Source: Bacteroidales bacterium
GTDB taxonomy: Bacteria > Bacteroidota > Bacteroidia > Bacteroidales > P3
Direction: 5' to 3'
Assembly (NCBI GenBank): GCA_016283175.1
Contig: JAEEMK010000076.1
Span: 1-32,064, forward strand
Length of the DNA: 32,064 nucleotides
Shown here: one piece after another, positions 4,635-24,769 of the stretch
Numbering within the stretch: position 1 is the stretch's first letter
Layout of the letters: each line of letters opens with the position of its first letter
The notes under the pieces: model-generated
Seen by the model: the letters and a program-made list of their open reading frames with translations, nothing else
Told to the model about the DNA's origin: nothing
Database searches by the model: none
Program-made: the position numbers and the translations under genes

Positions 4635-5075
4635 CTAAAAATTTATTACTATCTTTGCTGTCTTGATGTCGCTGTATTCAAACGACACCGGCTCGGCCGG
4701 AGCTTTCTTCTTGCCGGCGGGCTGCACGACGATGTGTGTCTCGTCGGCCTCGGTCAGGCGGCCTGTGACGTTCTCGCCGTCGAAGGTCGTCACCGACAAC
4801 TCGCGGCCTATATTCTTGCGGTACTGGCGTTTGAGCTTGAGGGGCGAGTCGAGGCCTGCCGAGGCTACATTGAGTTCGAAATCCTCCTCGTCGCGGTCCA
4901 GGCTGCCCTCTATGGCGCGGCTCAACTCTATGCAGTCGTCGATGGTGATGCCGTTGTCGCCGTCGATGGCCACGTTGATGCGGTTGTCGGTCGATATCTT
5001 CAAGTCGACCAGAAACTTGTCGCTGCCTGCCAAAGCAGTGTCTATGACGTTCAGTACGTGCAGTTTGTCAATCAT
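4635..5075 (-). CDS. rimP: Ribosome maturation factor RimP
   Basis: RimP is a cytoplasmic assembly factor needed for maturation of the 30S ribosomal subunit. The 146-residue product has the two-domain pattern of the family: an N-terminal alpha/beta domain containing 'DCIELSRAIEGSLD' and the 'ASAGLDSPLK' segment (equivalent to the SPGxDRPL motif), then a C-terminal Sm-like beta domain. I chose the ATG at 5073-5075, which gives a normal family length. A longer in-frame reading to 5291 runs through the promoter and leader and adds 72 unconvincing residues. It is the first gene of rimP-nusA-infB and has the promoter and a leader hairpin directly upstream. Confidence 0.95.
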   Translation of the reverse strand: MIDKLHVLNVIDTALAGSDKFLVDLKISTDNRINVAIDGDNGITIDDCIELSRAIEGSLDRDEEDFELNVASAGLDSPLKLKRQYRKNIGRELSVTTFDGENVTGRLTEADETHIVVQPAGKKKAPAEPVSFEYSDIKTAKIVINF

Positions 5076-5366: not shown

Positions 5367-5503
5367 GCCACCAGCATAGGCATATGTACAGTATTTGTAC
5401 AGTATATGTACAGTATTTGTACGCTTCTAAAGCGTACAAATACTGTACATATACTGTACAAATACTGTACATATGCCGAAGAATGTATACCGAAAGCAGC
5501 ACT
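5367..5503. repeat. 137-bp palindromic element, copy 1
   Basis: The core at 5379-5477 is a perfect palindrome with 48-bp arms and a 3-nt loop (CTA, 5427-5429). Each arm contains three and a half tandem 11-bp units of the form TGTACAGTATW, so the units are spaced by about one helical turn and run head to head. The flanks GCCACCAGCATAG (left) and GAATGTATACCGAAA followed by AGCACT (right) are shared with the second copy at 15907-16043, giving two equal-length 137-bp elements differing at 6 positions. It sits in the divergent rimP/feoAB spacer, where a terminator would not be expected. No transposase or terminal inverted repeat is visible. Confidence 0.92.
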
Positions 5504-5623
5504 ATGTGCATTGAATGAAACAGATGAAACCGTGTAAAAAACAAACGGCTGTGATGTTCTGGTTGTCAAAAAGATGTGTCTCTTTTTTTGCCAAAAAGCG
5601 CCCCTGTTGCCTCCCGATTCGAA

Positions 5624-5645: not shown

Positions 5646-5673
5646 CACGGTTTGTCGACTATTGTTAATTTTG
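5643..5673 (+). promoter_or_regulatory. Candidate promoter of feoAB
   Basis: A -7 box TAATTTTG (5666-5673) matches TAnnTTTG. A TTTC (5643-5646) lies exactly 19 nt upstream in place of TTTG. The predicted start leaves a leader of only about 20 nt before the ATG at 5700. The same TTTC-N19-TAnnTTTG layout occurs at 14734-14764. Confidence 0.6.
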
Positions 5674-5699
5674 CAAAACGAAATAAACTATGTGAACTA

Positions 5700-8162
5700 A
5701 TGTTACTTTCTGAATTACAAACTGGTAAGCGGGGTGTTGTGGTCCGTGTGGCGGGTCACGGAGCCTTTCGCAAGCGCATTATAGAGATGGGTTTCATTAA
5801 AGGTGTCACGGTTGAGTCGATACTTAACGCCCCTTTGAAGGATCCTATCAAATACCGTATTATGAATTTTGAGGTGTCTTTGCGCCGCAGCGATGCCGAA
5901 AAGGTTGAGATTGTCGGCGAGGACGAGGCTGAACGCGAGATTGTTAACCACAGCGACTACGAGCCTATCGATGCTCCCGAGTGTGACGCTATGCACCATA
6001 TCGCCGCCGAGCGCGGCAAGACTATCAATGTGGCCCTTGTGGGCAATCCCAACTGCGGCAAGACCAGTATATTCAACATTGCCGCCCACGCCCACGAACG
6101 TGTGGGAAACTACAGCGGTGTGACTGTCGACGAAAAGGTGGGCACGTTCCAGTATGGCGGCTACACGTTCAATCTTATAGACCTTCCGGGCACTTACTCG
6201 CTCAGTGCCTATTCGCCTGAGGAACTTTATGTCCGCAAGCATATCATAGAAAAAAATCCCGACATCATCCTCAATGTCGTAGACGGCAGCAATCTGCAGC
6301 GCAACCTATACCTCACCACGCAGCTTATCGATATGGATATCACGATGGTGATGGCCCTGAATATGTACGACGAACTGCAGAAAAGCGGCGACAAACTTGA
6401 TATCGGCCAACTCAGCACTCTGCTGGGTATGCCCATCGTACCCACCACGGGACGCAGCGGCGACGGTATCAACAGGCTTTTCGACAAGATTATCGAGGTC
6501 TTCGAGGGTGCCGTAAGCGGTGAGCACAGGGCAGCGAACGGCGAGCCGTTGTATAGGCACATCCACGTCAACCACGGTCGCGAGCTGGAGCGTTGCATCA
6601 AGCAGTTGCGCACCGAACTCTACGAACACGGGTTCAGCGATTCGCTTTCAACGCGTTTCTTGGCCATCAAACTCCTTGAGAACGACCGTCAGCTGGAGCA
6701 ATATGTCGCCGAGCGGGATCCCGACGGCAGCGTGCTGAGGATGCGCGACCAGATTGCTGACAAATTCAAGAAAGAGATTGGCCGCCGACTTGTGGACAAG
6801 GACATAAGCAAAGGCCACCAAGTGACAGTGGAAGAGGAACCGCAGGACATTGAAAGTGCCATTACCGACGCCAAATACGCGTTTGTCCGCGGTGCCCTTG
6901 CAGAATGTTATGTGAAGAACGAAAAAAGCACCCTCCACGCCCATACCGACAAGATTGACGCCATAGTCACCCACCGCTGGCTTGGCTATCCGGTGTTTCT
7001 CATTTTTATGTTCATCACATTCTATTGCACATTTGCCCTCGGTGCCTACCCGATGGACTGGATAGACGCTCTCTTTGGATGGCTTGGTGGATTGGTGACC
7101 GACAATATGGCCGAGGGTCCGCTGCGTTCGCTGCTTGCCGACGGCATCATTGCCGGCGTGGGCAGTGTCATTGTGTTCCTGCCGAACATTCTGATACTGT
7201 ATCTTTTCATTTCCTTTATGGAAGACAGCGGATATATGGCACGTGCAGCGTTCATTATGGACAAGCTGATGCACAAGATGGGGCTGCACGGCAAGAGTTT
7301 CATCCCGATGATTATGGGTTTTGGCTGCAATGTGCCGGCCATTATGGCCACGCGCACCATCGAGGACCGCAAGTCGAGACTGTTGACGATGCTGGTCATC
7401 CCGATGATGAGCTGCTCGGCAAGAATTCCGGTGTATGTGATTCTTGTTTCGGCTTTTTTCAGCAAATACGCAGCCCTGGTGCTGACGGGCCTCTATCTGC
7501 TTGGAATGATTATGGCGGTTCTGATGGCCAAGTTGTTCAGCCGCTTTGTTGTGAAGGGCGACAGCCTGCCGTTCGTGATGGAACTGCCTCCATACCGTAT
7601 GCCTACTGCCAAGGCCGTTTTGCGCCACACCTGGGAGAAAGGCAAGGAGTACCTTAAAAAAATGGGTACCATCATTCTTGGTGCCAGCATTATTGTCTGG
7701 GCGTTGAGTTATTTCCCCACCAACGACGACCGCAAAGTGCAAGCCGAAAACTCGTATATGGCCAAGATTGGCAAGACCATTGAACCTGTGATGACACCTT
7801 GCGGCTTTGACTGGAAACAGAGTGTGTCGCTGCTCAGCGGTGTCTTTGCCAAAGAGGTGGTTGCCAGTACTATGACTGTGGTCTATGCAACCAGCAGCGA
7901 GGAAGCCGACGAGCTTGAGGATTTCGAGGACGAAGAGAACGGCAGCCGTATCTCGCAGCTGATACAGCAGAATATGTCACCGCTGTCGGCAGCATCGATG
8001 CTGTTGTTCATACTGCTCTATATGCCTTGCCTTTCGACAATAGTCGCCATCAAGAATGAGAGTGGCAAATGGCGCTGGGCTTTCTTTACGATGGCCTATA
8101 CTATAGGCCTCGCCTGGCTGGCTTCGACGCTGTTGTTCCAACTCGGCTCGCTGTTCGTATGA
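5700..8162 (+). CDS. feoB: Ferrous iron transporter FeoAB fusion
   Basis: This inner-membrane protein imports Fe2+. The product of about 820 residues starts with a FeoA-like SH3 domain (about 1-75, with 'RIIEMGFIKG' and 'YRIMNFEVSLRR'), then a linker. The FeoB GTPase domain follows, with G1 GNPNCGKTS near residue 114, G3 DLPGTYSL and G4 NMYD. The C-terminal part has multiple hydrophobic segments from about residue 420, including the Gate regions with conserved 'GFGCNVPAIMATRT' and 'MMSCSARIPVY'. I chose ATG 5700: an upstream TTG at 5652 would add 16 residues and overlap the promoter. It is followed 36 bp later by its small Cys-rich partner. FeoA-FeoB fusions are common in Bacteroidetes. Confidence 0.97.
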   Translation: MLLSELQTGKRGVVVRVAGHGAFRKRIIEMGFIKGVTVESILNAPLKDPIKYRIMNFEVSLRRSDAEKVEIVGEDEAEREIVNHSDYEPIDAPECDAMHHIAAERGKTINVALVGNPNCGKTSIFNIAAHAHERVGNYSGVTVDEKVGTFQYGGYTFNLIDLPGTYSLSAYSPEELYVRKHIIEKNPDIILNVVDGSNLQRNLYLTTQLIDMDITMVMALNMYDELQKSGDKLDIGQLSTLLGMPIVPTTGRSGDGINRLFDKIIEVFEGAVSGEHRAANGEPLYRHIHVNHGRELERCIKQLRTELYEHGFSDSLSTRFLAIKLLENDRQLEQYVAERDPDGSVLRMRDQIADKFKKEIGRRLVDKDISKGHQVTVEEEPQDIESAITDAKYAFVRGALAECYVKNEKSTLHAHTDKIDAIVTHRWLGYPVFLIFMFITFYCTFALGAYPMDWIDALFGWLGGLVTDNMAEGPLRSLLADGIIAGVGSVIVFLPNILILYLFISFMEDSGYMARAAFIMDKLMHKMGLHGKSFIPMIMGFGCNVPAIMATRTIEDRKSRLLTMLVIPMMSCSARIPVYVILVSAFFSKYAALVLTGLYLLGMIMAVLMAKLFSRFVVKGDSLPFVMELPPYRMPTAKAVLRHTWEKGKEYLKKMGTIILGASIIVWALSYFPTNDDRKVQAENSYMAKIGKTIEPVMTPCGFDWKQSVSLLSGVFAKEVVASTMTVVYATSSEEADELEDFEDEENGSRISQLIQQNMSPLSAASMLLFILLYMPCLSTIVAIKNESGKWRWAFFTMAYTIGLAWLASTLLFQLGSLFV

Positions 8163-15906: not shown

Positions 15907-16043
15907 GCCACCAGCATAGGCATATGTACAGTATTTGTACAGTATATGTACAGTATATGTACGCTTCTGAAGCGTACATATACTGTACATATACTGTACA
16001 AATACTGTACATATGCCGGAGAATGTATACCGAAAAAAGCACT
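15907..16043. repeat. 137-bp palindromic element, copy 2
   Basis: Same length, flanks and orientation as the element at 5367-5503, with 131 of 137 positions identical by my alignment. The core 15919-16017 is again a perfect palindrome with 48-bp arms and a 3-nt loop (CTG). Relative to copy 1, position 15957 is A instead of T and the partner position 15979 is T instead of A, so the change in one arm is matched in the other. It sits between two co-directional genes, 40 bp after one stop and 45 bp before the next start. Confidence 0.92.
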
Positions 16044-16088
16044 TTAGGCCATAAAAGAGCATAGTGAAACACAAAAAACAATGAACCT

Positions 16089-16871
16089 ATGGTTGTGATT
16101 GATTTGCAGAAATATAAAAAGGCGGACAACAGGCTGTTGCGCGAAATTACCGCTTTGCGCGACGACGAGAAGGCCGTCGGGTTGTCGCGATTCTTCAAAA
16201 CAGGTCCCGGACAGTATGGCGAGGGCGATGTCTTCCTTGGTGTCAAAGTGCCCGACACGCGCCGCGTGGTGAAGGATTGCTGGCACGAGTGTTCGTTCGG
16301 AGATCTGGACGAATGTCTGGCTTCGCCTTTCCACGAGGTGCGTCTTGCGGCGCTGTTGGCACTGGTGCAGATGTTCCAACACAGCAAACACGATGTCGGT
16401 CGGCAGCGCGAATGCATCGAGTTCTATCTTGCCCACCTCGCCGCGGTCAACAATTGGGATTTGGTTGACCTGAGCTGCTATGAGCTGCTTGGCCGTTGGC
16501 TGCTGGACAAAGATGCCTCGCTCCTGCGAACGTTGGCACGCGACGGCAAAACCATATGGGAGCAGCGCATAGGCATAGTCAGTACGATGTGGTTTCTCCG
16601 CAACGGCCGTCTTGACGATACTTACGTTATTGCCGACATATTGCTGCAGCATCCCCACGACCTGATTCACAAGGCCGTAGGCTGGCTACTGCGCGAGGCA
16701 GGCAAACGTGACAAGGAGCGTTTGGTGCGCTTTCTCGACACGCCTGCCGATGGCGCTGCTTTGCTGTCGCGCTGTCAGCTTATGCCACGCACGATGTTGC
16801 GCTATGCAATTGAGAAGTTTCCCGAAACAGAGCGAAAAAAATACTTCGAAAAACAGAAAGACGGCCGCTGA
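16089..16871 (+). CDS. AlkD-like DNA alkylation repair protein
   Basis: This 260-residue protein belongs to the AlkD family of HEAT-repeat DNA glycosylases, which release cationic 3- and 7-alkylpurines without base flipping. The residues that line the AlkD active-site cleft in Bacillus cereus (Trp109, Asp113, Arg148, Trp187) have good counterparts here: Trp123 and Asp127 in 'NNWDLVD', Arg160 in 'WEQRIGIV' and Trp199 in 'AVGWLLRE'. The helical repeats and overall length fit the family. It should act on DNA in the cytoplasm. No own promoter is obvious, and the upstream spacer is occupied by palindromic element copy 2. Confidence 0.92.
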   Translation: MVVIDLQKYKKADNRLLREITALRDDEKAVGLSRFFKTGPGQYGEGDVFLGVKVPDTRRVVKDCWHECSFGDLDECLASPFHEVRLAALLALVQMFQHSKHDVGRQRECIEFYLAHLAAVNNWDLVDLSCYELLGRWLLDKDASLLRTLARDGKTIWEQRIGIVSTMWFLRNGRLDDTYVIADILLQHPHDLIHKAVGWLLREAGKRDKERLVRFLDTPADGAALLSRCQLMPRTMLRYAIEKFPETERKKYFEKQKDGR

Positions 16872-24453: not shown

Positions 24454-24585
24454 GGCAAACCAGCCGGCACAAAGCACCTGAAACGCATCACCCCGCCAAC
24501 TTTTCCCAGCCGCAAGACGCAAAAGTGACAACCTGAACCAGCGAATCACAAGCCGTTTTGCGAGCCATCCGCTCCGCCATTTCGC

Positions 24586-24680
24586 CGTTACTTCTTCGTT
24601 ACATCATCGTTACTTCTTCGTTATTTCTTCGATGCACAATCGAAGAAATAACGTTGAACTAACGTTAAACAAACGTTGAA
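24586..24680. repeat. 11-bp phased, diverged palindromic element
   Basis: The left half has four exact 11-bp steps (24586, 24597, 24608, 24619) of the type CGTTACTTCTT. The right half has 11-bp steps at 24643, 24654 and 24665, each ending in AACG. The centre, 24619-24653, is a perfect 15-bp inverted repeat with a GCACA loop. The outer units pair only partly. It lies in the 384-bp convergent spacer (24454-24837) after the macroglobulin gene; apart from this element and the terminator at 24770-24812, I see no gene in that spacer. Confidence 0.75.
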
Positions 24681-24769
24681 ATGGTGGGGCAGATGCGGCG
24701 CGGGACTAAAAAAGTGTCTGCATATAGCGCAAAACGCACAGCGCAATCTCGGTTCTGTCTTGTATGGAT

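Follow-up and report, generated by a model that had tools for sequence, protein, structure and literature searches.

Why should the chromosome of a gut Bacteroidales bacterium keep an exact 99-bp palindrome of 11-bp units between the divergent genes rimP (reverse strand) and feoB (forward strand), and does it stand there alone? The palindrome occupies 5379-5477 of contig JAEEMK010000076.1 (assembly GCA_016283175.1; the whole stretch of 32,064 nucleotides is called the window here), inside an element at 5367-5503 described in an earlier note made from the sequence alone. DNA of this kind, long and perfectly palindromic, is regarded as fragile, yet about 94 such palindromes persist in this genome, several at sites common to another species; they keep a minimum distance and change in unison, which hints at an unrecognised copying process. 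We observed about 94 copies, 11-bp units specific to species, covariation from arm to arm, sites shared with one congener, orthologous copies less alike than paralogous ones and, between members of the family, a spacing of no less than about 7.5 kb. We go beyond the earlier note in the number of copies, their least distance, the differences in unit between species and the concerted change of copies at old sites. The account that we favour, tentatively and at somewhat less than an even chance, is that of a dispersed, non-coding palindromic repeat family at old intergenic sites, whose copies pass sequence from site to site and evolve together. The copying between sites is evident from the comparisons below; its agent we infer. 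Any explanation exposes a measurable rule, whether it concerns the reach of break-induced deletion, a new distance for immunity or spacing in the nucleoid, and a design that stays the same as its 11-bp units vary between species lends itself to comparative tests.

Copies and spacing in the source genome

The arms of the palindrome (48 nt each, 3 nt apart) are 100% complementary, and their direct repeats step by 11 bp, exactly as the earlier note had read them. As single-stranded DNA, the segment 5367-5503 is predicted to fold at -55 kcal/mol, against a mean of -12.96 for shuffled sequences (z -17.5; none of 200 shuffles equalled it), and a two-unit pattern with at most three mismatches was matched nine times within the window and never in 100 shuffles. 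A second copy of these 137 bp, 96% identical, lies at 15907-16043, and the count of copies that the earlier note had called for shows that the palindrome is far from single: in the source genome (G000, a draft of 111 contigs), 94 forward sites match its 21-bp centre with at most two mismatches, and the reversed control matches none. We placed 93 of these 94 sites, extracted 72 unique copies and used 71 to compare arms and loops. The unique flanks of many copies, together with sites common to the assembly of another species, argue against an assembly artefact. At one contig start (L057:1-210, contig C34) the arms reach 103 bp, as the start mirrors itself; this case is probably an artefact of assembly.

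Most copies read GGCATATG-(GTAC units)-GCTT-NNN-AAGC-(units)-CATATGCC. By our count each arm holds two to five of the units, and the loop is mostly CTA/TAG (33 of 71) or CAG/CTG (32 of 71), in both senses. Arms differ at 1.72 of 44 bases within a copy and at 2.46 between copies, and are identical in 34 of the 71; homogenisation therefore acts across the arms too. Flanking modules recur as well. Module A is about 91 bp long; with a loose cut-off, 71 of the 132 flanks that could be read resemble it, and 21 of the 23 DNA hits of one module A copy lie beside palindromes (the remaining two have E above 1); the other frequent flank is the short TATGCTGGTGG module. A periodicity of 10-11 bp inside module A was weak, little above other lags, and is not claimed. 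A G+C-rich repeat of about 83 bp (containing GGGCTGCCACGCACAAGGCTTCTCCACGCGCTCCACCGGAGCTTGTG) adjoins several palindromes (flanks L066, L008, L076, and L054), at times in tandem, its joint marked by a CATATGCC remnant.

Genes were found on both sides of 56 copies: 30 in tandem, 24 divergent and two convergent. The regions of at least 150 bp in the same stretches, regardless of elements, divide into 83 tandem, 53 divergent and 13 convergent (n=149), so that these counts mostly reflect where long intergenic regions lie. In crude gene calls, 13 of the 56 placed copies overlap an open reading frame of at least 90 aa, and the two longest of these frames (L041, L048) are upstream extensions. Module A shows no bias towards gene starts or ends (38 of 97 five-prime-facing gene sides, 15 of 35 three-prime-facing).

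The copies keep their distance from one another. On the 21 contigs with at least two copies of the main family, 58 copies define 37 intervals, with a minimum of 7,577 bp, a mean of 16.6 kb and a coefficient of variation of 0.44. When the same numbers of copies are placed at random, the coefficient is 0.83 and 14.9 intervals below 7.5 kb are expected, never fewer than four, where we observed 0 of 37; not one of 20,000 simulations reached the observed regularity, and confining the simulated points to intergenic DNA left the result unchanged. The first test covered 81 of the 94 sites, those on contigs of known length; two copies on contig C95 were then added, and the final test adds contigs C81 and C111. 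The spacing can be accounted for by a hard-core model that forbids neighbours within 7.5 kb (P 0.21). Exclusion is thus enough: nothing shows further evenness, and a strict even spacing with an upper limit is not needed. Gaps free of copies reach 45.8 kb (C95) and 54 kb (C20), and hidden elements fill such gaps only in part: we found two more main copies on C95, one diverged copy on C35 and none in C20:1-54000.

Three genomes titled Bacteroidales that appear to be congeners allow the same comparison: RGIG5467 (G025, sheep colon), RUG061 (G023) and RGIG2655 (G083, goat omasum; present a second time, with identical coordinates, as G077). RGIG5467 agrees with the source genome (seven intervals, minimum 10.2 kb, 3.1 expected below 7.5 kb, P 0.008, in a test that excludes an 8.7-kb interval on its contig C86). 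Copies in RGIG2655 are sparse (10 intervals, minimum 15.5 kb, P 0.13); an earlier P of 0.007 for G083 was biased, its stretches having been picked around elements, and is not used.

The spacing rule belongs to the main family. On contig C111, a palindrome built of a different unit, the TTCTTATATCG type (L309:15150-15230), stands 3.6 kb from a main copy; other diverged palindromes lie 8.7 kb (in the window), 9.5 kb (C35) and 19.9 kb (C24) from main copies, and two palindromes of a second unit family are 7.2 kb apart. Exclusion across unit families gave a joint P of 0.05 on four sites, but we rejected it, since the C28 site is half a palindrome and the C111 pair is 3.6 kb apart. The TTCTTATATCG type forms a third unit family, also met in RGIG2655 and RGIG6188 (L277:18665, L279:2122, L219:286-401).

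Shared sites and changing units

We compared 20 stretches of RGIG2655 with those of the source genome. Where an intergenic region of RGIG2655 bears an element, the orthologous region of the source genome bears one in 7 of 10 testable cases, against 4 of 25 element-free regions (Fisher P 0.004); an eighth shared site, one of the three failures, was found by alignment (L290/L046). Two pairs can be aligned right across the element, one at 73% over 920 bp and the other at 80% over 511 bp. The copies at these old sites do not resemble each other as orthologs should: over the 87-bp core, median identity is 0.954 within the source genome (69 copies), 0.943 within RGIG2655 (24 copies) and 0.851 between the two, and the six orthologous pairs are 0.793-0.885 identical, each below both copies' medians within their own genomes (0.885-0.966), with two of the six source-genome copies scoring lower through shortened arms. 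All 405 readings from the source genome have the unit core GTACAGTA, and 83 of 95 from RGIG2655 have GTACGGTA, a count that excludes units of the form GTACGCTA. Thus, in six orthologous pairs from one species pair, orthologs are less alike than copies within a genome, the mark of concerted evolution, which means that copies overwrite each other. At one shared site, assigned through one flanking gene, the units are wholly different (L285 and L175), and the rimP-feoB region itself carries a GTACAGTAT palindrome in the source genome, a TTCAACGATAC palindrome in G082 and a direct array of TTCTTACCAAA in G077. In RGIG5467, 45 of the 46 sites found have an identical asymmetric centre, so whole copies were copied.

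Only 3 of 60 relatives match by DNA similarity search, because relatives keep the design but change the units: elsewhere in the genus, species have inverted arms of 11-bp units, often of quite different sequence, such as TTCTACGGTAT and TTCTTCAGTAG in G023, TATTACGGTAG in G012, TTCTTCGATTG in G029, TTTAACGGTTG in G019, TTGTCCAGTTG in G069 and, again, TTCAACGATAC in G082. GTAC-type palindromes occur in RGIG2655, RGIG6188 and UBA3724, among the matches listed in a scan of named genomes. Sampling of 16 other genomes (2.3-20 kb each) showed clear 11-bp palindromes in 2, and 20 further congener stretches showed them in 4. Arrays of period 11, set against periods 9, 10, 12 and 13, number 124 against 6, 0, 3 and 0 in the source genome (mostly the palindromes themselves), 21 against 0, 0, 1 and 0 in G023, and 15 against 5, 1, 2 and 0 in other congeners; some of all these arrays are direct and without a palindrome. 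Judged from these sequences, the 11-bp phase seems to be a habit of the genus.

Several related arrays were noted. Direct 11-bp arrays of other units, with no palindrome, lie at L184:11272-11361 (G023), L117:10285-10350 (G001) and L150:16211-16399 (G071). In G041, from another family, 11-bp units resembling TGTACATATAC form direct arrays at two loci amid ordinary genes (L111:6999, L112:7519); not being palindromic, they were omitted from the counts. In UBA3724, contig ends or the edges of scaffold gaps fall within or beside palindromes (L206, L245, L254, L259, L261), so short-read assemblies may undercount them.

How the copies might be rewritten and kept apart

In the mechanism that we favour, the long hairpin would extrude at replication and be cut, with SbcCD as the candidate enzyme; SbcCD reportedly cuts a chromosomal palindrome in E. 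coli, the subject of a title among the references of PMC7999016, and an SbcD over the model cut-off is encoded beside one copy, with an N-terminal part of SbcC. Repair of the gap templated by another palindrome would then homogenise arms and copies. Where end resection reaches from one copy to a homologous one, the two would anneal and the intervening genes be deleted, leaving survivors at least about 7.5 kb apart, and palindromes of other units, having no homology, could sit closer. Deletion between homologous copies thus predicts exclusion within the family and not across units, as in the 3.6-kb pair on C111. Breakage, repair and deletion are steps that we infer, none of them observed.

Several results weigh against this account. 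Long palindromes kept at a median protein identity of 77% (partial data) suggest selection, which the mechanism does not supply, and we found neither a clean empty site nor a breakage product. The tests of site sharing rest on stretches chosen around elements, and sharing between G023 and the source genome is no better than chance (2 of 5 against 6 of 15). Moreover, looser detection in G023 gives a pair of imperfect palindromes with shared units only 4.5 kb apart; strict detection there gives 11 intervals with a minimum of 6.8 kb (P 0.03-0.04), and exclusion in G023 is not claimed.

Retention is explained better if the palindromes are chromosome-organising sites, on which a DNA-binding protein would load along the phased 11-bp units and bridge or anchor the nucleoid, selection keeping a minimum distance and the units co-evolving with the protein. 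The 11-bp repeats of the ParR-parC system of plasmid R1 offer an analogue; the 11-bp phase stands far above neighbouring periods, sites are kept between two species, and exclusion holds in both the source genome and RGIG5467. We nevertheless consider this explanation unlikely. We identified no binding protein, and non-functional details shared among copies (module A, the fixed asymmetric centre of RGIG5467) show copying and not selection site by site. The long copy-free gaps, the failure of exclusion in G023 and the lack of a clear 11-bp palindrome in most congener stretches sampled (14 of 16 in one set, 16 of 20 in another) also speak against it, and the 3.6-kb cross-unit pair on C111 weakens it, along with the combined view given below, and slightly favours the repair mechanism.

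A similarly low probability attaches to a transposon resembling a miniature inverted-repeat transposable element (MITE), moved by a transposase with target immunity over about 7-8 kb, in which shared sites would be old insertions and likeness within a genome the product of recent bursts. Module A is oriented without relation to genes, flanks are truncated in some copies, and hard-core, family-specific spacing is what immunity predicts; on the other hand, bursts alone do not give orthologous copies genome-specific units. Among DNA hits in the source genome (40 of 105 candidates scored in one search, which was not exhaustive) no element combining these ends with a transposase appeared, and two partial empty-site comparisons gave no clear target duplication. 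Inverted repeats are present as in MITEs, the palindrome being itself a pair of 48-bp inverted arms; inspection by eye of the flank portions listed for the 72 extracted copies showed no constant target duplication.

A combined view, which we regard as improbable, is that positional slots run chromosome-wide and of old standing through a Bacteroidales genus, their palindromic 11-bp arrays rewritten in concert within each genome by a dedicated process and read by a rapidly co-evolving nucleoid-organising protein; the minimum distance would then belong to the family in force and not to older, leftover units. That the copies are regulatory or RNA elements (terminators, stabilisers or promoters) is very hard to credit, since their place in long, often promoter-bearing regions is set against the lack of an Rfam match or T-run terminator, the indifference of module A to gene starts and a minimum spacing left unexplained. 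Among the roles that the earlier note had entertained, a dispersed repeat is thus what we find and a nucleoid site is possible, and for a hairpin recognised by a recombinase we found no partner.

Known repeats and the surroundings of the palindrome

The earlier note had seen no fit to repetitive extragenic palindromic (REP) sequences or clustered regularly interspaced short palindromic repeats (CRISPR) and had thought a terminator unlikely, and all three judgements hold. An Rfam scan of the window, judged by gathering score, matched a tRNA-His only, with no known RNA family at the palindrome. An intrinsic terminator is rejected on the two convergent placements among 56 and the lack of a T-run, and CRISPR because copies lie kilobases apart, with one 11-bp palindrome in each of the 60 loci of 3.0-6.0 kb around copies. 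Like REPs and bacterial interspersed mosaic elements with their REP-associated tyrosine transposases (RAYT, of the Y1 type), the copies are dispersed intergenic palindromes in high number. REPs are described as 20-40 bp long with GTAG or CGTC tags in the available text of PMC3733652, whereas here 99 bp are made of 11-bp units with the foot GGCATATG in most copies, so neither size nor tags agree. A co-distributed transposase, for which the earlier note had proposed a search, did not emerge with Y1 (PF01797), the one protein of the suggested kinds that we traced: it occurs in 15 of 22 genomes without tracking the repeats, was not found in palindrome-bearing G029, G019 and G084 (G019 and G084 are or may be incomplete), and has seven members in G001, though no palindrome was seen in 20 kb there. 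We therefore reject the RAYT link.

The nearest Bacteroidales repeats resemble ours by habit, not structure, as far as the available texts describe them. BrickBuilt, a MITE of Porphyromonas gingivalis (23-nt direct units, IS5-type 12-nt ends, 19 copies; PMC4596501), is likewise intergenic, with tandem units and flanking modules, but the available description gives no central palindrome of units. PINSR of Prevotella intermedia (188 bp, 177 and 184 copies in two strains, about three quarters of the regions common to both; PMC4755523) is also intergenic and lineage-specific; terminal inverted repeats are stated to be absent, and the portion of its account at hand gives no spacing. The available text of RepRanger (PMC12306157) holds nothing specific to the palindrome design, and we found no account of an 11-bp-unit palindrome in the open-licence literature.

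ParR-parC shares the 11-bp phased direct repeats, but it is a single plasmid locus next to parMR, unlike the dispersed inverted arrays seen here. The segment 5367-5503 had no plasmid or phage match at E 1e-5 (low-complexity filter on), and the three-unit pattern had no match in viral contigs.

Table 1. Palindromes, flanking modules and neighbouring genes in the window
Feature	Position	Strand	Remarks
Perfect palindrome	5379..5477	.	arms 5379-5426 and 5430-5477, loop CTA at 5427-5429, 11-bp units in each arm
Left flank module CCACCAGCATA	5367..5378	+	its inverse, TATGCTGGTGG, flanks other copies
Right module A	5478..5570	+	consensus AGGGAATGTATAYCGAAAACAACGTTTT...TGAAACA...; right end approximate
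Second palindrome, same family	15919..16017	.	loop CTG
Module A of second palindrome	16018..16108	+	right end approximate
Third, diverged 11-bp palindrome	about 24574..24683	.	unit near TTCTTCGTTAT; 8.7 kb from second copy
rimP (left neighbour, divergent)	4635..5072	-	NCBIfam NF002531 over cut-off
feoB-type ferrous iron transporter (right neighbour)	5652..8162	+	TIGR00437 over cut-off, orthologs; start codon anywhere from 5652 to about 5703

The two neighbouring genes (Table 1) bear out the divergent setting that the earlier note had recognised. Adjoining the third palindrome, the gene at 24841-25713 matches a Cbp1 family glycoprotein adhesin model (NF052320).

In Pseudidiomarina, three loci (L223, L229, L238) show TACTGTA repeated in tandem at 11 bp, close to a gene that seems to begin like recN; these repeats may resemble overlapping LexA boxes.
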